This document shows, in pieces, positions 2,336 through 63,100 of a DNA stretch of 64,000 bases. The position numbers and the translations under genes were made by a program. Every line of letters starts with the position of its first letter. The first letter of the stretch is position 1. Below the pieces are notes generated by a model. That model saw nothing but the letters and a program-made list of their open reading frames with translations. It did no database searches and was not told the DNA's origin. The stretch comes from Spinacia oleracea (taxonomy: Eukaryota > Streptophyta > Magnoliopsida > Caryophyllales > Amaranthaceae), in contig NC_079489.1 in the NCBI RefSeq assembly GCF_020520425.1, positions 82,280,810-82,344,809 on the forward strand, given 5' to 3'.

Positions 2336-4897
2336 ACGAGGTCACGACACGACATGAGGTCACGACGATACAACATGACGCCACGACAGCAAGTCACGAC
2401 AGCAGGACGCGACCATTCTGGTTACCCCTATGACGACAAGAAGTTTCTTGGCGTTAAACATGGTACGTAGAAGTAATTATCGAACATCTTTATTTTAACA
2501 ATATATTTCTTCGTAAGTTCGCCAACAGATCGTTGATTGATACATGAATATCAATGGGGGCTAAAGGTACGAACATACTTTCGAAGTGAGTTATCTTTTA
2601 TTTATAATATACACGTATTGTCGCTGCCACGTACATCGCAGATCGTGAGGGTCATCAACACAATCGAATGGTATGAGTGACTTAATTCATTTATTAGTGA
2701 CGTCAAAATTTTATAAACTAACACCTCATATCCTATTGAAATTTTCTCATATATCATCCGTGATAACTATTTTTCATTTACTAACGACATGCCGCGACTA
2801 TACGCGTTAGTATGTATATTAATGACAACAGATTACCTTGATCATGACGGTATGCCCCGACGCCACGAGATGGCAATGACCGATGACACGACGCCACCAG
2901 ACTACCGAGAAAGCTAAGGAAATCGGAATGTCGAATAATCATCATCAATGACCATGATGACACATGAGTAACTTCTAAACTATTTTTCACACACTTTCTC
3001 ATTTCAATTCATTCATTGTTGTTCTCTTGTATTAATATGTCTCGTATTCAACGTTCATCAAGTTAACTAATAAATTTTTGCATCGCACCATGAATGTCTC
3101 AATTTCTCTAATGACTAAACCATTTTATCAAATCGTTTTGAGGTAATTTGACTTGACATGACGTTTAGAGGTTGCATCATGCTGACACGCATGTACGACG
3201 TCAAATATAAACGAACGTCATCATATCTGTGGCCGACTTCAGTCATGATATCTTCCTAAAGCCGCCACAGGGGGGCAAGATAGTACATACTCCTGTTCAG
3301 TTTAATATACTTGTTACAACTTTGAAATTTAACTGACGATGTGATACAATTTATTTTCATGATGATCTTGTCGTAAGATTTTGGTAACAGGTATGACGCT
3401 AAGACAAATGTACGGACACTGGGGCTCAACCACTATCACATGTCGAAATAGGCGGATAAAGAGAAGTCATTGGGTTTCCCAAAGACGACAAGTGATAAGA
3501 CGTCAACCGATTAACAAGAAAGGTAATTTATAAAGAGTTCACATGTATTTGAATTTACGACATATTGTAATGTAAGTTTGTCAAATGATTTTACCAAAGA
3601 CGTTAAGAAAAAGTCCACTTAAGACAGTATAAGGAATTCACATTAACCATATGCTCCTTCTTGTGCCACATTGCGAGGATCAACCAATAAGTCGACCAAC
3701 GTTGGAATGGATAGTGTCAAGACCAGCGATGCGTCAATCTCATTCAACGTGACGGGACGACGCCAGATGTGACGACGATGATACAAGCGATGACAATGAT
3801 CTCAGGAACGAAAACAAGATCGGCGACGAGAGGTGCCACGACATCAGGAGAATGCTGTTGATTGTAGAATCGTCATCAAGGGACAGTCAGCGACACGACG
3901 TAATTTCGTTACACGAGCCCATATTAAGTAATATCTAACACTTACTTCGTGCGTTAATTAATTTATTACATTTTTCACTACACTGCGATTAAAGTTCAAT
4001 TTCAGTTTTTGTTATCTGTCGCATTGAATATATCCTTCCAAACGCAATTATATTATATTTATGTTTCATCTTATTTATTTGAAAATCGACGCTAACATCG
4101 CATCAAGCGAACGTCCACCTCTACCTTTTCTATTCTCTACAGATCACTTGTTGACGATATCACCAACGACAACAGCAACGAACGACATCATCAGAAGACG
4201 ACATCAACGAACGACGCTATCAACTACAAGCAACAACGTCTCCATGGTCATGACCCTTAAACTTATTGGATCCCAACGACGACATGTCGCTTCTAAGCGC
4301 GACCACTACAGACGACGCAGGTTCTATTTATGTGCACATAACTTCGTGCTTTGAGTACCTCACAGGTGTCATCTATTCCACAGCGAACAACAGAGACAAC
4401 GTAAACAACATTTTAAGCTAACGACGTGTATGCACCCTCGACGCTTGTCCAAACTCCTAACCAATCGCCAAATACAAAACAGAGAAACACACGTCTTTCC
4501 CCCTCAACACTGACGACAAACAAAGCCGACCCAGAATGCTCATGTCCTACTTAAACTGTTGTTCTGAATATCCCATAGGCTAAAGTCTCCTTCCATAGAT
4601 TGCGCCATCCAAACATCTTATCCCTTGTCCTCGTGTTATAGGAAACCTCACAACCCTTCGACTCTTCTTGAAATTCGTCATAAGGTTGCTTCGAACCATC
4701 CACTTCATTCACCTGTAACTTCAACTCAGTCGTCTGCTACCTATCCTCACATGACATTGCAACCATCTAAAACGATTCAACCATACGCACACTCGACGCA
4801 ACTTCCTTCTCTAAATTCTTCGCATGACTACGAACAAATGAAGAGGCTTATACCGCCTTCATACGGTAGATGTCACACAACAGCGACAATAGAGGCA

Positions 4898-11647: not shown

Positions 11648-14323
11648 TTATTTATTGCTTGACCCAAAAATTTCTTGTTTCACCTCTTCAATCTTAGACC
11701 CAAGTTCTTCTCTATTTTTCTGGAAAACAGAATGAACAAGCATGTTAGCAAAAGCATTCGGGACTCAAGCCAAGTCTTACGCAGTAGGCACAACAAGTAT
11801 GAAATAAAGTTCTAGTGAAGAACTACCTTATAAAGGAGATATCGTGTGGTGAACCATACTGAGTAGCCTAGACCCACAACTTCCATCAATTTAGGGAACT
11901 GTTTCAAGATATTATCCAATTTAGTCAGGCAATTTCCCAAATTCAAAAAAACAGATTTTCAACTTTAGTTGAATTCTCCTAGAGTTTGAGTGAAGGAAAA
12001 ATACCACTGGAATAGAATCAATTGCACCAACAACAGCTGAAACCAACCACGCAGCAACAACTGCAACACCGCCATATAGGAAAATTGTTGATGAATCTTC
12101 AAAATCCAACTGCAAGTAGAACATATCATCAATTTAGTAATTGGTAGAAACAAGTCAAACAACTCAAACAACCCAAATCATGGATACTCCCTACTACACT
12201 AGGGTGTTTCTCACAGAGGTTGATACAAGGCTAGCAATACAATTATGGTTCACTGCATATGCAATGAAACATATGGAGTGGTTTCTTGCTACAGACACTT
12301 TTATACGAATAAGTACTGACTGTAGGCTTTACTGTAGAACAGAAAAGGGTACAGACTACAGTATCAGAGTGGTTCTTGCTACACTTTTTTATGCAAAAAA
12401 GTAGTGACTAATGATTCTGTGGAACAGAAAGAACTCAAGAAGTAAACTACGGAGTATCAAGTTTATGCTGCTCAGTTAACCGCTCAGGATTGACATGATT
12501 GTCAACCGAACATTAAGCATTGCTGCTTTCTTAAATTTCAATGAATCTCATCATTGCAGCATGAAAACCATATTAAATAAAAACGACCTTGCTCTACAAA
12601 AAGAGTTTTAATACTAAATTTAGATCGATGGAGTTGCCTGGCAAAAAACAACTGTTTTCACATGTCCTAGTCTTTGGAATATCCACTACTATTCATGGGG
12701 CGGGGGAGGCTTTGCTGCATAGCAGAAAAATGATATACGAGTATCAAGTTTACGTTGCTCAGTTAACCGCTCAGGATTGACATGATTGTCAACCGGACAT
12801 TAAGCATTGCTGCTTTCATTAATTTCAATGAATCTCATCATGGCAACATGTAAAGGTGTTTTTACAGTAAATTATACTATGGACCTGCCTTTGAAGAGCC
12901 AACTAATTTTCACTTATCTAAGTGATAGGTGTTGCAACTGCAGACTGCTCATGCAATAAAAGGTCTACCGCATAACAAAAAAAAGTGCTTGGTATTAAGT
13001 TAAAGCTGCTCAGGTAACCGCTCAGGATTGACAGGATTGTCAACCGAACATTAAGCATTTCTGCTTTCTTAAATATCAATGAATCTCATCATGGCAGCAT
13101 GTAAACCATATAAAAATAACAAAAACAAAACGGAACTATACACCAAAAGGGTTTTTATAGTAAAATAGTTTGATGGAGCTGCCTAACAGAGTGATGGCTA
13201 ACCGATTTCACATGTGGCACTAGCCGCGCTACACATTATTCTTAAGAAATAGTGACTTGCATAATGCACTTTCATGAAACATTTTCAAAGGGACTAAAAA
13301 AAAGGTTTTGCTGTTATGTTAATGCTGCTCAGGTAACCGCTCAGGATTGACATGATTGTCAACCGAACATTAAGCATTGCTGCTTTCTTTAATCTCAATG
13401 AATATCATCATAGTAGCATGTCAAAAACATAATTTCAAAATTAAATATTTGTTGACAAAAAGCATTTATACACTAGAAAAGAGTAATTGCAAGTCGATTG
13501 GATTCAACTATATGCAAGTATGATGTAGAAAAGCATAAAATCACAACAGCATCGTATGAATAAATCCAAAAACCATTATTTATAATGTCAAGTTCTTTAT
13601 GTTTTGTGATAAAAAGTCTGGATTTTTAAAACATCAGACAACAAAAGGTAGCATTGGTAGAGAAGCATAGAGAAATAGAAGCAATACTTGAATGTCAAGC
13701 TTATTGAAGAGCTCCTGAATCGGCTGCAAAGTTTCATCATCTGAAGAAGAATCTTCTTCATTCACATGCGCAGCTTTATCAATTGTGACATCATTGCCTA
13801 CAAAAGTCGCAACACCACTTTTCTCTTCTGTAAACTTACTTGAAGTTTCATCCAAGCTTGCTCTCAACAATCTACTTCTACTTTTATCACACACCACTCC
13901 TGCAATTTCAAAATATAACATTCATTTTTATCATTTTAGCGCAAATTAACCAAACAAAAGACGAAATGAATACAAATACATGAATTCGCCACACTACCGT
14001 CAATAATTTGCTTCAAATAATCATAAAAAAGTGAATTGAAAAAAGAATTTGTGCTTATTTTTTGCGCATAAATACCAAGTAAAACACGTATTAAAGAAAA
14101 TGTGTCACAAATTTTCGCCACAAAACATCAATCAGAAACAAATATACTCCAGGAAAAGTGGTAATAATAGAAATGAATTGAAAACAAAACAAAACAAACC
14201 TGAGATGTTAGAAAGCTTCTGAAGAGGATAGGAGAAATGAGGAGTGTTAGTGAAGACGGGACGAGAAGATGAAAGTGGAAGAGGAGGGATTGAAAGAGCG
14301 CCGCGCGCAATACAGAGCTCCAT
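11648..14323 (-). CDS. CURT1D: CURVATURE THYLAKOID 1D-like protein, five exons
   Basis: Exons on the minus strand: 14323-14200, 13899-13688, 12109-12005, 11898-11827 and 11719-11648 (TAA). All four introns are GT-AG and the phases join to 194 codons, near the family's length. Residues 1 to about 60 are Ser/Pro/Leu-rich, like a plastid transit peptide. Residues 61-112 are acidic linker. The CAAD/CURT1 region follows: DFEDSSTIFLYGG, a first membrane helix (about 120-142), a GAIDSIPV turn, FPKLMEVVGLGYS, a second helix ending in RYLLYK (about 151-171), and a charged C-terminal helix (KNREELGSKIEEVKQEI). CURT1 proteins oligomerise in grana margins and bend thylakoid membranes. Family identity is firm; assignment to 1D rests on remembered similarity. 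No defect is seen. Intron 2 carries the snoRNA array. Confidence 0.87.
12465..12562 (-). ncRNA. C/D-box snoRNA-like copy A
   Basis: Read on the minus strand: stem arm ATGCTGC (12562-12556), box C ATGATGA (12554-12548), 72 nt of interior, box D CTGA (12475-12472), stem arm GCAGCAT (12471-12465). The arms pair perfectly over 7 bp and the boxes are adjacent, as in C/D snoRNAs released from introns by trimming. A second CTGA lies 8 nt upstream of box D (12487-12484). The sequence before box D (AATCCTGAGCGGTTAA) is the candidate guide; I could not assign a target. Confidence 0.78.
12752..12849 (-). ncRNA. C/D-box snoRNA-like copy B
   Basis: Same 98-nt length and layout as copy A: box C ATGATGA (12841-12835), box D CTGA (12762-12759). 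The terminal arms are ATGTTGC and GCAACGT. Relative to copy A the central C-G pair has become T-A, a compensatory double change, and another pair has become G-U. This preserves pairing rather than sequence, strong evidence for an RNA fold. Interior and guide are nearly unchanged. Confidence 0.8.
13003..13100 (-). ncRNA. C/D-box snoRNA-like copy C
   Basis: 98 nt. Box C ATGATGA (13092-13086), box D CTGA (13013-13010), arms ATGCTGC and GCAGCTT with one mismatch at the outer side. The base before box D is C instead of A, as in copy D. One interior change (AATCCTGTCAA for AATCATGTCAA) slightly alters an internal TTGAC/GTCAA hairpin loop. Confidence 0.76.
13322..13419 (-). ncRNA. C/D-box snoRNA-like copy D
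   Basis: 98 nt and first in transcription order. Box C ATGATGA (13411-13405), box D CTGA (13332-13329), arms ATGCTAC and GCAGCAT with one mismatch near the box. Guide region and internal hairpin match the other copies. Confidence 0.76.
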
Positions 14324-14360: not shown

Positions 14361-14496
14361 TTAGGGTTTTTGTTGTTTCAGTTTCGGTGGTTTTGTTGCG
14401 AGCTGAAGTAGCGAAGTGTAAGTTGGTGGTAGACTGAAACTTCACGAGTTGCTGGTTTATAAGCGGTGTTATAATGGGCTTAGGTTAAGAAGCCCA
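14361..14496 (-). promoter_or_regulatory. CURT1D promoter with telo-box and two site II elements
   Basis: On the minus strand, two site II motifs (TGGGCT at 14491-14496 in one orientation and 14475-14480 in the other) stand about 150-175 bp before the start codon, and a telo-box (AAACCCTAA, 14369-14361) about 40 bp before it. The combination is known from plant ribosomal-protein, translation-factor and snoRNA genes. Its presence at a thylakoid gene is best explained by the intronic snoRNAs. No clear TATA box is seen. Confidence 0.72.
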
Positions 14497-15001: not shown

Positions 15002-18000
15002 ATGGATGTTCGAGATGAAATTGACATGAACAAGCTACAAAATCCAACGAAAAACAAAAAGTAAGTAATTATAAGTGATTCTGATGTTTCGATTTTATTT
15101 TCGAACTAAATATGAAACCTAATTTTGTTTATTTTCGTTCTATTTCAGAAATACGAAGTTGCAGAAAGAAAGAAAACGAATGTAATTTCAGTTCAGATTT
15201 CGTACATGCAACTGTTTTATTACTTAATTTCTGTTTAATTTAATTGTTTTTCAGTTTTTTCATTATAATAATGTTCAATTTTTTTGGCTTATGATTTTAA
15301 CAAACCCTAACTTCTGAATTTTTTGCTATAGTACTGGAAAATCTAGTAATCAACCAAAAATCGGCACTGAAAAGCAAGAAGACATGACGGAGTAAGTTAT
15401 TTTAAGTTTTTGTAGATAAAATTCATTTTAATTTACATATGTTCAATCAATTTCATGTTAATGTTCAATTATTTTTATTTTAATGTTCATTTTCGTTGCG
15501 TAATGATTTTACCAAACCCTAACTTTTGGTTTTTTGGTCACAGAACTGGAAAATACAAAATTGAGACTGAAATTGGAACTGAAAAGCAAATAGGCACAGT
15601 CCAATAAGTCATTTTTATGTTTTTGAATATCAATTTCTATTTAATTTATGAATGTTCCATTTTAGACATTTGATACAATACAAAAATACAAAATAATGAT
15701 AAATTGTTCATATTCATAGAGATTTAAGAATAATCTTATTGATGATTCAAATTTGGATTAGGAATGTCAATTATTTCAAATATTATTATAATAATATAAA
15801 TGTGATGAACTTTTGTTGAGTTCTTCTATCCTTATGTTAGATGTTCATTTTATATATGTAAAATGTTCATATTTTTTAAACTAGATATTCATTTTGGTCT
15901 ACTGAGTTTTGTTTAGAAATGTTGAACTATATCCAATGTTATATGCATAATCCAAATAATTTGAACTTTTGTTCATTCCTATGTACAATAAATTAAGTCT
16001 AGAACTCATGATAACTATCTTATGCAAAATGCTCAATTGATTATTGCAAAATATTCAATTTCTTTTTGAAAAATGTTCATATTTTCCAAACCGGATATCA
16101 TTTTTGGTCTACTAAGTTTTCTTTAGGAATGCTGAACTATTTCGAATATTAAATGTATAATCCAAATGATTTGAACATTTGTTCATTCCTCTGTCCAAAA
16201 AATTAAATCTAGAACTCATAATAACTGTCTGTCTGCAAAATGTTCAATATGTTTTTGTAAAATATTCAATTTCTTTTTATAAAATGTTCATTTTTTAACT
16301 GGAATATATTTTGTTAATGAGTTTTGTTTAGGAAATTTGAATTATTTCAAATATTATATTCATAATCTAAATGTTCTTTGTACTCATATTCAGTTTTTCT
16401 ATCCTAAAATTTTTAACCTACACTCATGTATGCAAAATGTTCAATTTTTTTTTGTAAAATATTCGATTTCTTTTTATAAAATGTTCGTTTCTTTCAAACT
16501 ATTTGTTCTGATATACTGAGTTTGGTTTAGAAATGTTCAATTATTTCAAGTGCTATATTCATAATTTCAATGTTTTGAACTTTTGTTCATTTCTTCAGTC
16601 AATTTCTTCAGTCCATTTTAATATTAAGTCTCGAACTCATGATAACTGTTTTTATGTTAAATGTTCATTTTGTTTTCATAAAATATTCATTTCTTCAAAC
16701 TGTATTTGCTCTGGACACTCATTAGTTACACATTTATAAAATCTAGTGCTCAACCAAAAAGGTTATTAATCAAAATTAAGCGAAGACCAACTAGATCACA
16801 GCCAGAGGTTCAGAAAGCATTAAGGTATAAGATAATATCAATTTTTTTATTTGATTTGAATGATTTTTAATTTTATATAATATAGTGTGTCCGTTAACAT
16901 CATATTAATAAAAAAAATACAGTGAAGGAGATGGGAAAGCATCTTCAACTTCTGAGCCAGAAGTTCAAAAATCATTAAGGTATAAGATAATGTCAATTTT
17001 TAATTTAGTTGAATGATTTTAAATTTTATATAAAATGACGTGTTTGTTTACACCTTACTATTCAAATTACAGCGAAGGAGATGAGAAATCTTCATCAAAA
17101 TCACAGCCATAAGTTCAGAAAACATCAAGGTATAAAATAATGTGAATTTTGAATTTAGTTGAATCATTTTAAATTTTATATAAAATAGTGTGTATATTAA
17201 CATCATATTATTCAAATTACAGTGAAGTAGATCAGAAAAAGTCCTTCAAAATCTTCGGTACAAACAAAGAGTGATAAAAAAATAGGTACATTTTAAACCT
17301 GTAATGATTTTTAAACATTTGGTATGTTTGTTCTTTCTTTTTGTATTATTTGATCTTTCATTTTGTGCTTTTTATTTTTTCATTTTGTACTTTTTGAAAT
17401 TTAAAAATAAAAAAAAATAATAATATGCCTCTATATTCAAAATAATTTCATTTTTTGTTCTTTCTTTTGGTAGTATATGTTCTTTGTTTCATATTCCTTA
17501 TTCTTTTTTATTGAAAATTTTGACCTCTTTTGTTTTTTGTTTGTTTGAATTCTTATGAAAATGTTCATACTTTTTATTCTATATGTTCATTCCAGCTCAA
17601 TGATTTTAAATTTTTTATCATCATATTAACATCATATAAAATAACATGTCTATTAACATCATATTATTCAAAATATAGTGAAGAAAATGAAAATGTTAAT
17701 CAAAATCTTCAATACAATCACAAAGTGCAACAAAAAATAAGTTTGTTCTTTGTTTTTGTATTATTTTTTCTTTCTTTTTTACAATTCATTTTCTTCTACA
17801 TACTTGTTCATAATTGTTTCATTGTTTGTTCTTTCTTTTGGAATTGTTTGTTCTTTATTTTTTATGGTTTTTCTTTATTATTGAACTGCTTGTTCTTTCT
17901 TGTTTATTTGCAAGTTTATATTTTAATGATATTGTTCATACATTTTCATATATATGATCATAATTATTTTTGCTTTGTTTATTGAATTTATTTGTTCTCT

Positions 18001-19353: not shown

Positions 19354-19959
19354 TCAAGACAAAACCCCAACTAGGTTCTTCTTCTGCAGAATTCTAATGC
19401 AAGAGATGTATTTCATTTGATTCGCGATGGTAGCAGCGGATTGACGAACATTCCGAAATTTTCTATAGTTCATTTCCCTCCACACTAGATACACAGCAAC
19501 TGTAACAATCAATATGTAAATCTGATGTCTGCAAGAGTTCTTATTGTACTGAGTTTCCAAGAGATGGAGTTCCTCAGTCCATGATTTAGCACTCCTCTGC
19601 ACACCTATCCACTGCAACACTGTAGTAAAGATCTCAGAAGAAAAAGAGCAGGCAAAAAAAAGATGGTTCACTGTCTCATTTTCCTGGTTACACAAACAGC
19701 AAAGTTGATCACAATGAAAACCAATTTTCAGCATATTCTCACATGTAGCCAGCCTTCCTAATATTGCCAACCAAACAATAAATGTGCATTTTGGAGGTGA
19801 AGGGTTGTTGCACAATATTTTCCTCCAAGGCACAGGAGCAATAAGGCCTCTCAAACTTTTATAAACAATGTTGATAGTCAAGTGTTGGTGCTTCAACATT
19901 TCCATACCACCCACAAAACTACTTAGGTGTTGTCGAGCATCAAACACCTTCTTCACCAC
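19354..19959 (-). pseudogene. LINE ORF2 C-terminus with zinc-binding RT end
   Basis: Continues the same ORF2 after two in-frame stops (near 20221 and 19964). It shows WRKILCNNPSPPKCTFIVWL and a zf-RVT Cys/His pattern (CCLCNQENETVNHLFFAC), standard near the end of plant L1 ORF2. The last residues run to 19354, about 140 bp before the A-tail. Confidence 0.85.
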
Positions 19960-20220
19960 CTATGAGGCTTGCGCAGGGGCCTGCATGATGGTGATATCTC
20001 TCCCTTTTACATAAAATATATGCACCCATCTAACCCAAACTTTGTCCTTTTTTTGAGAGAGATTCCAAAGCATCTTGCAGATAGCCGCTTTATTCCATAA
20101 CCGAACACAAGGAATACTCCATCCGCCGGCAGCCTTTGGGAGAGAAAGAGTTTCCCAAGCTACAAGAGCTCTCTTTGAGGCTCCATATTTACCGGTCCAA
20201 AGAAAACACCTACAAGATGC

Positions 20221-20958
20221 CTAGATAAGTTTGAGTACCTTCTGTGGCAAGAGAAAAACTTGGCACCAATATGTTTGGATGCTAAAAATAACAGATTTTA
20301 TGAGCTGGATTCTTCCTGCATAAGAAAGTATCTTAGATGACCAACTGTTAATCCTAGCCAATATTTTGTTGATCAAAGGTTGGCACTCCATCACAGTAAG
20401 TTTCTTGGTTGATAGGGGTACTCCGAGGTATTTGAAAGGTAACTCTCCCTTTAGAAGACCAAAAGTATCAATGATAGAATCTTGGACACTTTGAGGAACA
20501 CCACCAAAATAAACTGAGCTCTTTGATTGGTTAGCTTTAAGACCAGAAGCAGATGAGAATATATTGAACGCTTCAAACAATTGAGTAATAGAGGATAAGT
20601 CTCCTCTAGAAAATAGAAGCAGATCGCCAGCAAAGCAAACATGTGTAAGAAGCAATTTCTTACATCGAGGGCGAAAATTAAAGCTTCTATTATCCTTCAA
20701 ACCCATCAAACACCGATTGAGATATTCCATGCATAAGACGAACAAGGACGGCGAGATTGGATCCCCCTGCCTAAGTCCTTTCTTCGCCTCAAAAGGCATA
20801 GTGAGTTCACCATTTACATTGAAAGAATATGAGACAGTGGTCAAACACAACATGATCCATTTGACAAACTGACAAGGGAAACCATATTCAAGAAGAAGGT
20901 GCTCAATGAAAGGCCATTCAACAGAATCATATGCCTTTTGCAAGTAAATTTTCAGCAT
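20221..20958 (-). pseudogene. LINE reverse transcriptase fragment (dead)
   Basis: The frame reads KAYDSVEWPFIEHLLLEYGF (motif A region), then KKGLRQGDPISPSLFVLCME (motif B), SASGLKANQSKSS and LPFKYLGVPLSTKKL, typical of plant L1-like RT. The catalytic F-A-D-D box reads FAGD, so an essential Asp is Gly. KID before the first motif reads KIY. The frame stops at TAG near 20221 inside the conserved LKLI*ASCRCFLW segment. The copy cannot code for an active enzyme. Confidence 0.85.
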
Positions 20959-37769: not shown

Positions 37770-40700
37770 TGTAGACACCTACTTTTGTCCCCATTCCCGA
37801 AAGGGAAGGTTCGATGATGAAAGTATAAATCTCCACTTGACAACGCATCTCCTATAAAATAACGAATCTCGATCACCCCTTTTCATTTCACCCGAAACCT
37901 GCTATTTATAGAAACCTGCTATTTATGGAAACCTGCTAAAAATAGTAACTGCAGTAATGGGTAGTTGTTAAAAGTGGCAAGTCATAAATGATAGAAACCT
38001 GTCAGAATTAGGTGTTGCACTCCAACATAAATCCTAAATGAGATAGAGATTATGAGAGAATCCTATTCCTAATATGATTCGAAAATAAGAGTTACGTATT
38101 AATTAAAATCCTAACGAGCCTAGAGTTCGTAACGGGCCCAGATGCATTCCATCATAAAATTAATACGCACTAAAAGACTCGATTAAAGTCTCATACACTC
38201 CGGATTCTAGGAATCCGAATCTGACAAAGAAACGGCCCAAACATCAATTTCAACGCCCAGCCCTGGGCGCTGAAATTGCTTGGATCCTATTTTCAACACC
38301 CAGAGCTGGGCGCCGAAATCTTTGACGCCCAGCCCTGGGTGCTGAAAATACCTGGGACGTGTTATTTCCTAATTCCTCGTGGATTAGAGTTCTACAATTC
38401 TATCTTTCCACGAACTCTTTTCTATAAATAGGGCCTTAAGTTCGACGTGAAAACAACACCAACACACAATTATTATTCTGAGTATTGACTCTAAACCCCT
38501 AAGCCTAAGCCTCACGCTGCAAAACTGATCACGCGTTCTGTCGCAATCGATCCATAAATTGAACAGAACGTTTCCTGTCCCGTAACTTGAGATTCGTTAA
38601 ATAAAAGGAGAAATAGCAAAGTCAAAGTGGTTAGTTTTCTGAGAACCGTGACGTACCTCTCAAGGGTGCGTCGTAATGTGTCCCTTTTCTATGATTTAAT
38701 TGCTTTCCTCGCCCTTTTATGAACTGTTAAACTAATTAAATCTGATTGTTCTATCACACCTAATAAAGATTATGTTTTTGGGAAATTGGATTATCATGCT
38801 AGGTCCCTTAATACAATCTAAATCAGATAATCGCGCTCGATCTAGTATTATATGTTGCATATTGTTAAAATCGACTTAGATTAGTTTAATAGTTAACGCA
38901 TGTCCCTTCAATTATTTATGCTGAGCTAGTAAGGATATCGTGCCTCTGGAGTTATCGAAGAGCGAGTACTCCTCTCGGTAGTTACAGTCCCCCGAACCCT
39001 CAATCTCTACCCAGTGGGTGTACGTTGAGCGATCCCCACCACCAGGGATCACAAGGGAACCTACGGGCGTCGTGGTCAAACATAATTGCACTCCCTTTAT
39101 GTCACGATAACCGGGTTTTGTCAGTTTTCACTAGTGGAAAAAACCCCTATTGCAGCCCCCTTGTTGAGGCGGGCATTTAAAAGCACGCCCCTACAACCAC
39201 TATGTCAATGCGGGTCAATGATTTCAATGAGATGTCGAGGGGGGCTTCTAATTGTTCGCTTCAATAGACTCTATTGGGGTGGGCTTTGGTGTTGTACGCT
39301 TCAACCATTTCAAGGTTGTTTAGCGAACATTTTGTTGTTCGCTTCAAGAGATTCTCGGCCCGCGAATTTTAAAGCCCAATTAAGTAAACTACCTAAATAC
39401 CCAATTCCTTAGGGTTTATTTTATATCCTCATCAATTCCACTTCCCTTGGCCTGCCGTTTTTTCGTTCTCTCTCCTCATTTCCTAATTTTTTTTCATCTT
39501 CATCTCCTTTCCAATCTTCATGTCCTTTCTTTGATTGCGATTACATTTGTTCTTGAAAAAAATTACCGAACATCGAAATTCTTCCACCATCTCCTTCCAT
39601 GTTTGTGGTTCACAAAAGATGGAGAAACAAAAGCTTTGAACCATCTCCATATTTTCTCGAGATGGTGATACTAACAAGGTCTAATCTCCTTTTCCTTCAT
39701 CTTTTCAATTTAATTTTGGAATGGATTTTGTTTTTTTTCTCTATTTTCTATTTTGTTCATGATTTGGTGAAGTTTTTATTTCTTTGCTAAAGTCGGAAAT
39801 TAACTCAATTTTTGGGGGAAATTTGTTGTTTTTCTTATAGATTTGATGATCTATCTTCAATCAATAAGATCGGTCTCCGGCGTTAGGATCTCGGCGGCAG
39901 AAGAATCATAGATCTAAATGGGTAAGATTAATTTTCTTGTCTTTTTTTTGGGAAAAAAATATCTAATTTTAATGTTCATTAGAAGTTTATAATCTGATTT
40001 TAAAAAAAAAAATAACTTTTACATCCAGAATTTAATTTTCATCTAAATTTTTGTTTTGTTTCCGATTTCATTTTTGACTACTAATTAGAAATATGAAATT
40101 ATATTTTCATTTCTGTTACATTTTCGATATCTTTTTTTTGTATTTTTTCATCTTATTATTTCATATTTTAAGGATTTTCATTTCTGTTTTATTGTTATTT
40201 TATTGTTCATTAAATTGTCTCTTACAAACTTTTTTTTTTGCAGGTTTGTCATGGCCGTGAGATTCATTTCATTCAATGGAGTTGTTAATTTGCTTAGCTT
40301 GGATTTTTCTTACATATTTGTACTTTGAGTTATTCAACTTTGTAAGAGGAGTACTAATTTTATAGAAACTCAGATGTATTATTCTTGTACTCCGTATTTG
40401 ATTAATAATAATAAGAAAAGTTTAGTATTTCAAGATTTTTGTCTCCAAAATGCGCACTAACCAGTTACAAGGGCCCAACCCAGAAATAAAAGCTAAAACT
40501 TACGAATTAGCTAAAAACCATGCAAAAAAAAAAGTCTGTTGTGGGGGGCATTTCAGAAGTGCGCCTCAACAGAGAAGTCTGTTGTGGGGGGCTTACGTTA
40601 AAGTGCGCCTCAACAGGTCCATTTTTTAGCATGGTTTTTGGGCTGTTGTGGCACGTTTTTGAAAGCCCGCCTCAACAGATATCCTGTTGAGGCGAACAAA

Positions 40701-45485: not shown

Positions 45486-46864
45486 TGTTAGGTTATGATA
45501 CATATGACAATTCATAAATCATGCGGAAACAACCATTAAGCCAGGAATACATATTATTTACACATAATCATATAACATAGTTTAGAAGCATACTCTTTGT
45601 TGCGTGCCTTCCCTAGCTGCGCCCGAACCGAACAAGAACAAGTCTTTAGGACTCCAAGTGTCGTCCCTCCGTAGATAGTCCACAGCACGTCCGGATCCGC
45701 CTTAAGATTGACCAACTAGAATCGCCCTTAAGGTACTAATAATTTCGGCACTTTTAGGCAAGGTATGTGACTGAATTTTTCTCTCAAAAACTCACTTTGA
45801 ATACTTGAAAACTCGTTATAAATTGTGAACCCAGGCCACATATTTATAGGGGTATGGAAAGAGAATTGGAATCCTACTAGGATACGAATTAATTAAATTA
45901 GAATCCTAGTGGAACTCTTATTTAATTAATTTATCTTTTAGGATTAGGAATTTAATCATTAAACAAACTCTATACGCTTTAGGATTCGAGTAACACACTT
46001 CGAGTAATACTCTAGCACCGCACGCAGGCCTTGCGGCCCACGCACAGCGCCAACCCACTCGTCGCAGCCCCGCGCGCGCGCCCAAGCTTCGGCTGGGCCT
46101 GGCTTTTGCGCTGGGCCTGGTCGCATGCTTGGCGTGTGGTTGTTGCGCTTGGCTTGCTGGGCGATGGCCCCGGCTTTGTGCTGGGCCTTCGTCTGGCAGG
46201 CCTCGTCCGATGCTAATTCGTACGATGCGCTTCCGATTAAATTCTCGATTCCGGAATTCATTTCCGATACGAACAATATTTAATATTTCCGATTCCGGAA
46301 TTAATTTCCGTTTCGAACAAATATTTAATATTTCCGTTTCCGGAATTATTTTCCGATTCCGATAATATTTCCGATTCTGACAATATTTCCGTTTCCGGTA
46401 ATATTTCCGATTCCGGCAATATTTCCATTTCCGATAATATTTTCCGATATGTACCATGTTTCCGTTTCCGGCAACATCTACGACTTGGATAATATTTATA
46501 TTTCCGATACGATCCATATTTCCGTTTCCGGCAATATCATCGTTTCCGGAGTATTCATTACTTGCCTGTGACGATCTCAGCTCCCACTGAAACCAAGATC
46601 CGTCGATTCCGAATATCCATAGATGGAGTATTTAATGCCATTAAATACTTGATCCGTTTACGTACTATTTGTGTGACCCTACAGGTTCAGTCAAGAGTAA
46701 GCTGTGGATTAATATCATTAATTCCACTTGAACTGAAGCGGCCTCTAGCTAGGCATTCAGCTCACTTGATCTCACTGAATTATTAACTTGTTAATTAATA
46801 CTGAACCGCATTTATTAGACTTAACATTGAATGCATACTTGGACCAAGGGCATTATTTCCTTCA
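45486..46864 (-). repeat. 3' LTR (LTR1) of the outer copia element
   Basis: 1,379 bp, read on the minus strand TGAAGGAAAT...ACCTAACA. A TATA box is at 45848-45841. A polypurine tract (AAGGACAAGTGGGAGAC) adjoins it at 46881-46865. Its first 238 plus-strand bases match LTR4 with one difference, but differ from LTR2 and LTR3 at several diagnostic sites (GGAAACAACCATTAAGCC versus GGAAAAACCATTTAGCC). A run of about 330 bp (46230-46560) is quasi-tandem TTTCCG(T/A)TTCCGG; ORFs there are artefacts. Confidence 0.88.
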
Positions 46865-47853: not shown

Positions 47854-49222
47854 TGTTAGGTTATGATACATATGACAATTCATAAATCATGCGGAAAAAC
47901 CATTTAGCCAGGAATACATATTATTTACACATAATCATATAGCATAGTTTAGATGCATACTCTTTGTTGCGTGCCTTCCCTAGCTGCGCCCGAACCGAAC
48001 AAGAACAAGTCTTTAGGACTCCAAGTGTCGTCCCTCCGTAGATAGTCCACAGCACGTCCGGATCCGCCTTAAGATTGACCAACTAGAATCGCCCTTAAGG
48101 TACTAGAATTTTCGGTACTTTTAGGTAAGAAATATGACTGAATTTTTCTCTCAAAACTCACTTTGAATACTTGAATTAATCTCTGAAAATATGTGACCCT
48201 AGGCACGTATTTATAGAGTTATGGAAAGGGAATTGGAATCCTAGTAGGATACGAATTAATTAAACTTAGAATCCTACAAGAACTCTAATTAATTAATTTA
48301 TCCTTTTAGGAATAGGAATTTAATCATATACTAATTCTAATAGTTTTAGGAATCATGCATGAACACAAACTCACACACACACGGCAGCCACGAGGGCCGC
48401 CCATGCGTGTGCGTGCGAGCAGCAGCCCACGCAGCGAGGCCATGGCCTTGGCGCGCGCTGGGCCTGCCTTGCGGTGGGCCTGGGCGCTGCCTTGGCTGGG
48501 CGCGCGTTTGGCTTGCTGGGCGATGGCCCGACTTCGTGCTGGGCCTTCGTCCGGCAGGCCTCGTCCGATGCTAATTCGTACGATACGCTTCCGATTAAAT
48601 TCCCGGTTCCGGAATTCATTTCCGATACGAACAATATTTAATATTTCCGATTCCGGAATCAATTTCCGTTTCGAACAAATATTTAATATTTCCGTTTCCG
48701 GGATTATTTTCCGATTCCGATAATATTTCTGATTCTGACAATATTTCCGTTTCCGGCAATATTTCCGATTCTGGCAATATTTCCATTTCCGATAATATTT
48801 TCCGATACGTACCATGTTTCCGTTTCCGGCAACATCTACGACTTGGATAATATTTATATTTCCGATACGATCCATATTTCCGTTTCCGGCAATATCATCG
48901 TTTCCGGAGTATTCATTTCTTGCCTGTGACGATCTCAGCTCCCACTGAAACCAAGATCTGTCGATTCCGAATATCCATAGATGGAGTATCTAATGCCATT
49001 AAATACTTGATCCGTTTACGTACTATTTGTGTGACCCTACGGGTTCAGTCAAGAGTAAGCTGTGGATTAATATCATTAATTCCACTTGAACTGAAGCGGC
49101 CTCTAGCTAGGCATTCAGCTCACTTGATCTCACTGAATTATTAACTTGTTAATTAATACTGAACCGCATTTATTAGACTTAACATAGAATGCATACTTGG
49201 ACCAAGGGCATTATTTCCTTCA
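47854..49222 (-). repeat. Copia LTR2, inserted in the RNase H region
   Basis: 1,369 bp, flanked by ATAGG on both sides (47849-47853 and 49223-49227). Joining the flanks restores a continuous RNase H reading frame, so this LTR came into an existing copia copy. It has neither PBS nor PPT next to it, as expected of a solo LTR. It matches LTR3 with about nine differences and is much further from LTR1. A TATA box is at 48215-48208. The GC-rich middle (48390-48560) yields spurious ORFs. Confidence 0.85.
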
Positions 49223-54439: not shown

Positions 54440-54960
54440 ATCGCTGGCCATGTGCGCGCAGCCCATGCGCTCGTCGCATAGCTGCTGCATCTTCCATCGC
54501 AAGCCATCGCACGCTATGGTGCTCGCTGCGCGCGCGCCAGCGCTCGACGCACGCGAGCCATCGCTCGCTGTGCGCGCTCGCCAGCGCTCGCTGCGCGCGA
54601 GCCATTGCTCGCTGTGCGCGCGAGCCATTGCTCGCCGTGCGCGCGAGCCATTGCTCGCCGTGCGCGCGAGCCATCGCTCGCTGTGCGCGCGAGCCATCGA
54701 TCGCTGTGCGCGCGAGCCATCGCTCACTGTGCGCGCGAGCAATTGCGCGCGATCAATCGCTGGGCGCAGCGCTCGTGGCACGCGAGCTTGCGCTCGCTGC
54801 GCGCGAGGCTGCGCGCGCTTGCGCGAGGCAGTGCGCGTCGTGGCGCAGCTCGCTTGCTGCCCACACGCGACTGCCTTGGCTTGCCTTTCGCCCATGCCCA
54901 TTTGTTCATAGCTCGTGGCCCACGACACAAGGCAGGGCTGCTGCCTTGTGCTCGTGCACC
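54440..54960. repeat. GC-rich 23-bp minisatellite in the copia leader
   Basis: GAGCCATTGCTCGCTGTGCG-type units begin at 54601, 54624, 54647 and 54670, 23 bp apart, with more decayed copies on both sides. GC content jumps far above the AT-rich neighbours. The 228-codon plus ORF and 189-codon minus ORF here are by-products of stop-poor GC sequence. Confidence 0.85.
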
Positions 54961-55823: not shown

Positions 55824-57192
55824 TGTTAGGTTATGATACATATGACAATTCATAAATCATGCGGAAAAACCATTTAGCCAGGAATACATATTATTTACAC
55901 ATAATCATATAGTATAGTTTAGATGCATACTCTTTGTTGCGTGCCTTCCCTAGCTGCGCCCGAACCGAACAAGAACAAGTCTTTAGGACTCCAAGTGTCG
56001 TCCCTCCGTAGATAGTCCGCAGCACGTCCGGATCCGCCATAAGATTGACCAACTAGAATCGCCCTTAAGGTACTAGAATTTTCGGCACTTTTAGGTAAGA
56101 AATATGACTGAATTTTTCTCTCAAAACTCACTTTGAATACTTGAATTAATCTCTGAAAATATGTGACCCTAGGCACGTATTTATAGAGTTATGGAAAGGG
56201 AATTGGAATCCTAGTAGGATACGAATTAATTAAACTTAGAATCCTACAAGAACTCTAATTAATTAATTTATCCTTTTAGGAATAGGAATTTAATCATATA
56301 CTAATTCTAATAGTTTTAGGAATCATGCATGAACACAAACTCACACACACACGGCAGCCACGAGGGCCGCCCATGCGTGTGCGTGCGAGCAGCAGCCCAC
56401 GCAGCGAGGCCATGGCCTTGGCGCGCGCTGGGCCTGCCTTGCGGTGGGCCTGGGTGCTGCCTTGGCTGGGCGCGCGTTTGGCTTGCTGGGCGATGGCCCG
56501 ACTTCGTGCTGGGCCTTCGTCCGACAGGCCTCGTCCGATGCTAATTCGTACGATACGCTTCCGATTAAATTCCCGGTTCCGGAATTCATTTCCGATACGA
56601 ACAATATTTAATATTTCCGATTCCGGAATCAATTTCCGTTTCAAACAAATATTTAATATTTCCGTTTCCGGAATTATTTTCCGATTCCGATAATATTTCT
56701 GATTCTGACAATATTTCCGTTTCCGGCAATATTTCCGATTCTGGCAATATTTCCATTTCCGATAATATTTTCCGATACGTACCATGTTTCCGTTTCCGGC
56801 AACATCTACGACTTGGATAATATTTATATTTCCGATACGATCCATATTTCCGTTTCCGGCAATATCATCGTTTCCGGAGTATTCATTTCTTGCCTGTGAC
56901 GATCTCAGCTCCCACTGAAACCAAGATCTGTCGATTCCGAATATCCATAGATGGAGTATCTAATGCCATTAAATACTTGATCCGTTTACGTACTATTTGT
57001 GTGACCCTACGGGTTCAGTCAAGAGTAAGCTGTGGATTAATATCATTAATTCCACTTGAACTGAAGCGGCCTCTAGCTAGGCATTCAGCTCACTTGATCT
57101 CACTGAATTATTAACTTGTTAATTAATACTGAACCGCATTTATTAGACTTAACATAGAATGCATACTTGGACCAAGGGAATTATTTCCTTCA
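55824..57192 (-). repeat. Copia LTR3, shared by two tandem copies
   Basis: 1,369 bp. Its left side adjoins a PBS (so it acts as a 5' LTR for 49223-55823) and its right side adjoins ATAGGATGAT (57193-), the same junction as LTR2. The sequence is LTR2-like throughout, including the left end. A TATA box is at 56185-56178. This position and type are expected from unequal exchange between LTR2 and the original 5' LTR. Confidence 0.85.
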
Positions 57193-60100: not shown

Positions 60101-63100
60101 AACAAACAAACAAACATTGTTTTTGTTCTTCTGAATGTGAGTCTTTCTGTGTTTGAAGCAGAATTTTAGGTATGCTGATTATGGAACAAAATAGCCATTT
60201 AGTTCCAGCCTTGAAAGGACTTAAAACAAACTAGATGACCCTACAACTAATGTAGCATTGCCATGCTTCATTTCCCACTTGTAGGTCATTAGTGTAGCCT
60301 AGCTTCCATTGTTTGAGTTATTACCGAAGTAAGAACCTCAAGCGGTATATGATACCAAGGAAGTTTGATTGCTAGGTCACTTCTCTTTAAACATAAACTT
60401 ATAGGTATAAACGGAATCGTAAATTCCTTTCATTTGTTCCTTGTCTTCCTATTTCTTGTACCCTTTCTTATAGTCTTAAGAATTGAATTATATAGTGTTG
60501 ACTTTTATACTTTGTTAGACATGTCCGATGTCATTCCAACAGAGTTCTTACCATTTTATTTATGTTGAATATTCTGTTTCAACTAGATGATCTTACCAGA
60601 AGCTTCTAAAGTTCTCTAAGCATCAATCTATTCGAATGTCTAGGGACTAGACTCATTCGAGAATTAAATGGACAAAGATATTAGGTTGTTAACCATTGGT
60701 AAAGCTGAGCGTTTTAAGCTCAATGCTTTATGATCTCAAAACTACAGTGTATTTTGAATTCACAAGCACCAATTGGTTTGCCATTCGATTTTGATATTCG
60801 AAAACAACCATAAAAGTCGCTAAAAGAAACGTACATTTTAAATTGCTCATTTTCTCTCATTTCCGTGAATCGTTCTTGGATTCATGACCAATCGAGGAAA
60901 TTTACTGTTACCTTTCTAAAAGGATTTACCGCAGTGCAAGATATTTAATTATAAACAATAATTAAAACATACATTGAAGCATGCAAAGTCTAAACATTTA
61001 TCATGAATAATAACTTGAAAATGAAAGCAATCATGCAATTTAAACAAGTCATTAGCATTTTATTCGAGTTATGTGTTCCGGCAGGTGTGAATAAAATGAT
61101 TCCAAGATCCTAAAATCATTGAAGAACTAAGCACAGTTTGTCGACTTAATCCTAAAACATCTTAGGTAAGCAAAAGCCTTTTGCTAATAGTCTAGAAACT
61201 ATTCTTGGTTGATAGGTACGTCTAAGAACTTATTAGGTAAACCTATCGATTTTGCCACGACATAAAAGGACTCCTTACTTATATCGTTGAGTTTCACCAA
61301 AACTAACATGTACTCACAATTATTTGTGTACCTTGCCCCTTTAGGACCAATAAGTAACACCTCGCTGAGCGAAAACTATTACTAGATTGATGTAAAGGAT
61401 ATTCAAGCAAGTGTATATTTTGGCATGGCACCTTTTAACTCAATTTTTAAGTTTGGAACTTAAGACTCTTACTATGTTGGTTAGATTTTAAGTGAACTAA
61501 AATCCTTAATCATGCAACATAATCAAGCTTTGATCTCATGCATTTTAAGACATATTTAAAAGCAATAAATAACTTAAAACATGCATAAGATAAATGTGAT
61601 CTAGTATGGCCCGACTTCATCTTGAAGCTTTAACTTCAAAGTCCGTCTTGAAAATCTCCGTGGGAGGCACCATTTTCTTCAAATAGGATAAGCTATAATT
61701 AAAACTAATTACAACTATTTGATGGTACGCAGACCATATTTGAATTGAAAAACAACTTTGGTACTTTAGACCAATTACATTCAAATTAATGGTACGCAGA
61801 TCATATTTTCTATCCTATTTGGGCCATACTAGTCACTTCATAACCTGCAAAACAGTACATATACAATATATACCATTCACCCATTCATTATCATGAATGG
61901 CCCACATAGCTGGTTAGTAAAACACATTATGCATCACGTAAACATTTGCAGCAATTAATCAAGGGCACCAATAATCTACCAATTATTCAGTCCTTATTAA
62001 TTCTAATCAAGTTGTTTTAACCTTAAGGATTTGTAGACCTAATCAAGAGTTTATGACTAAAAGGGCTCCCACTTAAACCAATAAATTCATATGCTTTACT
62101 AATTTTAAACATAAAAATGTATTTCTAGTCTAACCGGAAACATACAAATTTAATTAAAATTTAAAGCTCATATAAATTTATAATTGAATCCAAAAAGTTT
62201 AATTTAATTTCAGTCGTATTTAAATTAATTCATGATTTTAATTTTAGTAAAATAATTAGAATAAATAAAATTTATTATAATTACAATATTAAAAATTAAA
62301 ATCCAAGAAAATAATTTAAATTATTAATTTTAAAATTAATTAAAATTACGTAAACTGAAAATTTCAAATTAAAATTTCAAAACGATCTAATCGTAACGCA
62401 ACAACCCCACGCAACGTACGCCCATGGGCCACACGCACACAGCCATCGCTGGCCATGTGCGCGCAGCCCATGCGCTGCATCGCATCGCTGCTGCTCTCCT
62501 TCGCAAGCCATCGCGCGAGCTGGTGCTCGCTGCGCGCGCGCCAGCGCTCGATGCAGGCGAGCCATCGCTCGCTGCGTTCGCTCGCTAGCGCTCGCTGCAC
62601 GCGGGCCAGCGCTCGCTTCGTGCACTCGCCAGCGCATGCTGTGCGCGCTCGCTAGCGCTCGCTTGGTACGAGCCAGCGGTCGCTGCGCGCGGCATCGACG
62701 CTGGGCGCAACACACGTGGCACGCGAGTTTGCCCTCGCTGCGCGCGAGGCTGCGCGCGCTTGCGCGAGGCAGTGCGCGTTGTGGCGCAGCTCGCTTGCTG
62801 CCCACACGCGACTGCCGTGCCTTGCCTTCGCCCATGCCCATTCGTCCATTGCTCATAGCCCACGACACAAGGCAGGGCTGCTGCCTTGTGCTCGTGCACC
62901 ATGCCCTTGCTCATTGCATTCGTGCCGCATGGGCGACGAGCTCCCTTGCTCGTTGTCACATGCCCGCACTATACAACACCCCTTAAGGGTAACACTTAGC
63001 GTCCATTGCTTTGTGCGTGCAAGTTATATGAACGAATCGCATAAAATTTAAAAATTTATACTTAAAATTAATGACAAATTAATAAATAATATTAATTTCA

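Follow-up and report, generated by a model that had tools for sequence, protein, structure and literature searches.

Four snoR128 copies in intron 2 of CURT1D

The 64-kb stretch of spinach DNA analysed here (the window) includes the coding region of CURT1D on the minus strand (positions 11648–14323). Five exons were defined (14200–14323, 13688–13899, 12005–12109, 11827–11898 and 11648–11719, the last with the stop codon), the four introns between them all have GT-AG boundaries, and the spliced product matches P0001 (SOVF_140120) at 194 of 194 amino acids (aa). When the first 171 aa of this product were used as the query in a protein search, spinach SOVF_140120, CURVATURE THYLAKOID 1D, was retrieved with 100% identity. 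CURT1D, which lies in the nuclear genome, encodes a membrane-bending (thylakoid-curvature) protein of the chloroplast. Intron 2 (12110–13687, minus strand; 1578 nt, GT-AG) houses four copies of a box C/D snoRNA sequence.

The original prediction had placed four 98-nt elements at 12465–13419, on the host strand within this intron, each with a box C of ATGATGA and a box D of CTGA. All four were found as described, with both boxes invariant, and the Rfam comparison that it had proposed named the family as snoR128 (RF01428, box C/D). In the order of the transcript, and all on the minus strand, copy 1 lies at 13322–13419 (55.7 bits at 13325–13416; box C at 13405–13411 and box D at 13329–13332), copy 2 at 13003–13100 (62.7 bits at 13006–13097), copy 3 at 12752–12849 (73.9 bits at 12755–12846) and copy 4 at 12465–12562 (64.9 bits at 12468–12559). 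Each match covers the full length of the model (1–91) and exceeds the curated cut-off of 40 bits, and the E values, calculated for the 64-kb window, range from 4.8e-6 to 4.6e-10, which is far beyond chance. A permissive Rfam scan of the window (E up to 1) found neither a fifth snoR128 copy nor any other snoRNA.

The copies are 90–94% identical in pairwise comparisons (88–92 of 98 positions). Thirteen of the 98 positions vary among them, and none of these falls in box C (0 of 7), in the 12-nt guide or in box D (0 of 4). The terminal stem had been described as a 7 bp helix enclosing every element, and this holds for two copies, as copy 4 has a perfect 7 bp stem and copy 3 also has 7 of 7 pairs, one of them U-G, but copies 1 and 2 each have 6 of 7, with an A-C mismatch in the former and a U-U mismatch in the latter (26 of 28 standard pairs in total). 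The double change from C-G to T-A that was said to preserve the stem is real and is found in copy 3, though it concerns a single pair in a single copy. With boxes C and D and the terminal stem taken together, the four copies were judged to have the features of box C/D snoRNAs despite the two mismatches. In terms of folding energy some copies do not stand out, as 52, 7, 27 and 3 of 200 shuffled sequences fold equally well. Boxes C' and D' were judged by eye only; an internal CTGA (position 76), which sits within the guide, gave weaker matches than box D in all four copies.

Elsewhere in the window, fragments of a reverse transcriptase that we infer to be of the non-LTR type, with the RVT_1 and zf-RVT domains encoded by different ORFs, lie at 19354–20958 (minus strand). 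Three near-alike repetitive ORFs with products beginning MDRIGNINIIQ (45918–46517, 48324–48875 and 56294–56845, minus strand) overlie arrays with periods of 18, 36 and 73 nt. GC-rich arrays with units of ~21–23 nt, overlapped by long ORFs, are located at 54521–54814 and 62512–62691, and short scattered arrays with a 22-nt period at 15439–17962. Overlapping Rfam matches below the cut-off were recorded at 38172–38314 (minus strand), to frnS (37.2 of 60 bits) and mir-4782 (32.8 of 100 bits), and no inverted repeat of at least 25 nt was found at 37800–38700.

Relatedness of the spacers

The sequences between the copies had been described as unrelated to one another, and this was contradicted by the alignments. 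The spacers between copies 1 and 2 (13101–13321), copies 2 and 3 (12850–13002) and copies 3 and 4 (12563–12751), all read on the minus strand, are homologous; the three pairs align with z scores of 4.7, 6.5 and 5.0, and for each pair, including the first spacer against either of the others, none of 500 dinucleotide-preserving shuffles reached the score. The spacers are more diverged than the boxes and the guide, and their alignments contain gaps. Seven comparisons involving the outer flanks were also made, and in six of these the score was reached by 83, 41, 93, 50, 169 and 390 of 500 shuffles; in the seventh, between the spacer separating copies 2 and 3 and the stretch past copy 4, it was reached by none of 500.

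As the spacers are homologous, the duplicated unit consists of a snoRNA together with a spacer. The start-to-start distances of the copies are 287, 251 and 319 nt, and the four copies most likely arose by tandem duplication of a unit of ~250–320 nt. A stepwise order of duplication is hinted at by one shared base beside box D and by the downstream sequence, which group copy 1 with copy 2 and copy 3 with copy 4. However, the pairwise identities do not favour this grouping, since copy 4 shares 92 of 98 positions with each of copies 1 and 2 but 91 with copy 3, and copies 1 and 2 share 90.

Occurrence in the spinach assembly

The 894-Mb spinach assembly was searched with the covariance model, with BLAST and with two sequence patterns, one consisting of the exact guide and box D and the other extending from box C to the guide and box D (0 control matches for each). 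Just these four snoR128 copies were found, in an assembly that may be incomplete and with a covariance search that scored 58 of 140,924 first-look candidates and could be escaped by a diverged relative.

The original prediction had noted that copies of the element across the genome would identify it as a MITE, and such copies were looked for in the 894-Mb assembly without any being found. A MITE, or another dispersed repeat resembling a C/D snoRNA by chance, might be suspected from four alike copies lying close together in a repeat-rich window (85 tandem-repeat rows). However, the assembly searches, within their sensitivity, found no copies elsewhere, the four elements match a curated snoRNA family over its full length, and their boxes and guide are invariant, so that an origin as a dispersed MITE is extremely improbable. 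It is also quite improbable, if less so, that the copies are pseudogenes, that is duplicated snoR128 sequences of which the expression or use has been lost. The stem mismatches in copy 1 (with its 5′ end at 13419) and copy 2 (5′ end at 13100) would fit such decay, but the boxes and guide have stayed the same in all four copies though the spacers have diverged, and the assembly searches yielded no snoR128 locus besides this one. As there is no second locus among the sequences searched, at least one of the copies is probably a working gene.

Predicted target in 25S rRNA

Upstream of box D, each copy has a 12-nt guide that is predicted to pair with 25S rRNA and to direct the 2'-O-methylation of a cytidine that corresponds to Arabidopsis C1847. 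The target sequence used was a stretch of LSU rRNA in a bacterial record (L001, a Mangrovicoccus ximenensis contig; NZ_QBKZ01000001.1, coordinates 4128–4482, minus strand) in place of intact spinach 25S rRNA. It was located by searching bacterial and archaeal genomes, of which one contig matched, with a plant 25S pattern that itself fixed most of the C1847 site. The stretch scores 188 bits as eukaryotic LSU rRNA and is plant-like, and its presence in a bacterial record is probably the result of contamination or an assembly chimera.

All four guides form 12 bp with this fragment with one bulged A, and the position five nucleotides upstream of box D (D+5) falls on the C of CATAAC. This C is the equivalent of Arabidopsis C1847 and the bulged residue that of A1851, as in the published geometry of snoR128 and snoR129. 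In the part of that work relevant here (PMC8053127), SnoR128 and SnoR129 are both assigned to C1847 of Arabidopsis 25S rRNA, via duplexes of 13 and 14 bp with A1851 bulged, and the assignment is reported as validated for SnoR129. The spinach copies have in common with these snoRNAs a guide upstream of box D, the same C at D+5 and the bulged A1851, and differ from them in the length of the duplex, 12 bp being predicted in spinach compared with 13 for SnoR128 and 14 for SnoR129 (PMC8053127). Six of six numbered residues (1847, 1850, 1851, 1855, 1860 and 1892) bear the base given in that paper. The first five, however, had been specified by the search pattern, which covered C1847 to C1860 and further bases, and their agreement is by construction; what is independent of the pattern is limited to U1892 and the TAA preceding C1847, which makes up 3 of the 12 pairs.

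When the guides were shuffled, the pairing energy was reached by 69, 80, 8 and 12 of 1000 sequences for the four copies against a 435-nt fragment, and pairing energy alone is weak support for the target. The argument rests on the agreement of the guide, the D+5 position and the bulge with the published assignment.

The exact 24-nt target site has no match in the spinach assembly. A similarity search of the assembly identified four LSU-like fragments (L018, L019, L020 and L021), which share 88, 93, 70 and 98% identity with the query over 253, ~202, ~205 and 50 bases, respectively. Most of the target site is retained in two of them, one with 2 and the other with 1 of the 24 positions changed, and some of these changes fall in the part paired with the guide; the site is strongly diverged in another, and the remaining fragment falls short of it. 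Scans of viral contigs did not find the 25S site. In spinach, snoR128 most likely guides methylation of 25S rRNA at a single position, the C1847 equivalent.

Promoter motifs and predicted transcription

The region upstream of the CURT1D start codon (ATG at 14323) includes a telo box (AAACCCTA; 14362–14369, minus strand) 39–46 nt before the ATG (–46 to –39), and two Site II motifs (TGGGCT) between –173 and –152, one at 14475–14480 on the plus strand, opposite to the gene, and one at 14491–14496 on the minus strand. Of 128,000 hypothetical start positions considered across the window, 797 have this layout of telo box and Site II motifs, and the CURT1D motif group itself accounts for 342 of the 797. 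A motif scan of intron 2 found neither a telo box nor a Site II motif.

In its section on genes that carry snoRNA clusters in introns, PMC3022908 associates telo-box and Site II motifs with the promoters of such genes; the ranges given for the ribosomal-protein promoters illustrated there are 0–280 and 80–400 bp, and the CURT1D motifs lie inside these ranges. As in plant intronic snoRNA clusters of this kind, the copies lie in an intron on the host strand and the promoter motifs precede the host ATG. However, promoters of this kind are common, with 3317 Arabidopsis protein-gene loci counted under a looser criterion in the relevant text of PMC4660826, and the CURT1D motifs are therefore not decisive for transcription of the snoRNAs from the host promoter, which they would support.

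A true snoRNA gene might instead be transcribed independently of CURT1D, by means of a promoter located within the intron. This would have a precedent, as Arabidopsis snoR128 is reported to have its own promoter (PMC4660826, in the part concerning this gene). Four TATA-like matches are present on the minus strand of the intron, those at 13584, 13470 and 13159 each upstream of a copy and the fourth at 12305. Such matches are, however, frequent in the AT-rich window, which has 139 on the minus strand, and the telo box and Site II motifs that are absent from the intron are both present upstream of CURT1D, so that an independent promoter is unlikely, though it is the least improbable of the alternatives. 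Under the preferred reading of a host-driven cluster, RNA polymerase II would transcribe the four copies within the CURT1D pre-mRNA from the telo-box/Site II promoter, and the intron would be cut into single snoRNAs that assemble with fibrillarin into snoRNPs.

Taken as a whole, the locus is interpreted as a homologous snoR128 cluster of tandem origin that is transcribed in the CURT1D pre-mRNA, processed from the intron and acts as a guide for the C1847 equivalent, and we assign this reading a probability of about 0.93. Within it, expression, the processing route, methylation in spinach and co-regulation are predictions made from the DNA sequence. The class of snoRNA, the strand, the host and the multi-copy intronic arrangement put forward in the original prediction are supported, and the family and a likely target can now be added.

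Comparison with known plant snoRNA loci

Plant intronic snoRNA hosts are mostly ribosomal-protein or ribosome-biogenesis genes according to the part of PMC4660826 that deals with them, and few plant snoRNAs are described as intronic in the corresponding part of PMC5122169. In the rice data given in PMC3022908, intronic loci are, as in spinach, nested in the introns of protein genes with telo-box/Site II promoters, and 15 of 31 are in ribosomal-protein genes, the other 16 being counted apart, whereas the spinach host is a thylakoid-curvature gene. From this proportion, snoRNA hosts outside the ribosomal-protein class are probably not rare in plants.

The closest counterpart is the snoR128-snoR129-miR779 gene of Arabidopsis, as outlined in the available account in PMC4660826, which shares with the spinach locus the snoRNA family, a telo-box/Site II promoter and a polycistronic arrangement. 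It is, however, an independent gene in which snoR128 is accompanied by snoR129 and a miRNA precursor, whereas in spinach a protein gene hosts four snoR128 copies in one of its introns, and a separate snoR128 locus was not found in the spinach assembly. In the available portions of PMC11222342 and PMC5513076, snoR128 is merely named in lists. No report linking a snoRNA to CURT1D, thylakoid curvature or chloroplast host genes was found in the open-licence literature. Both the snoR128 family and the occurrence of plant snoRNAs in intronic clusters had been described before, so the novelty is lower than the original prediction implied; the gene layout too is a known one, and CURT1D as the host is the new detail. 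The spinach snoR128 locus may already stand in genome annotation databases.

It is conceivable, though doubtful, that in the spinach lineage the entire supply of snoR128 has come to lie in the CURT1D intron under a promoter of the ribosome-biogenesis type, with the output of the methylation guide and of CURT1D co-varying and the four copies offsetting a weaker host. The locus is a concrete example of a single plant snoRNA family residing in different types of gene in two lineages, and the retention in both of the guide for an atypical bulged duplex lends some support to the target assignment made in Arabidopsis. Editing of the CURT1D intron in spinach could alter an rRNA mark. Apart from these points, the locus is of a kind that is ordinary among plant snoRNA genes.
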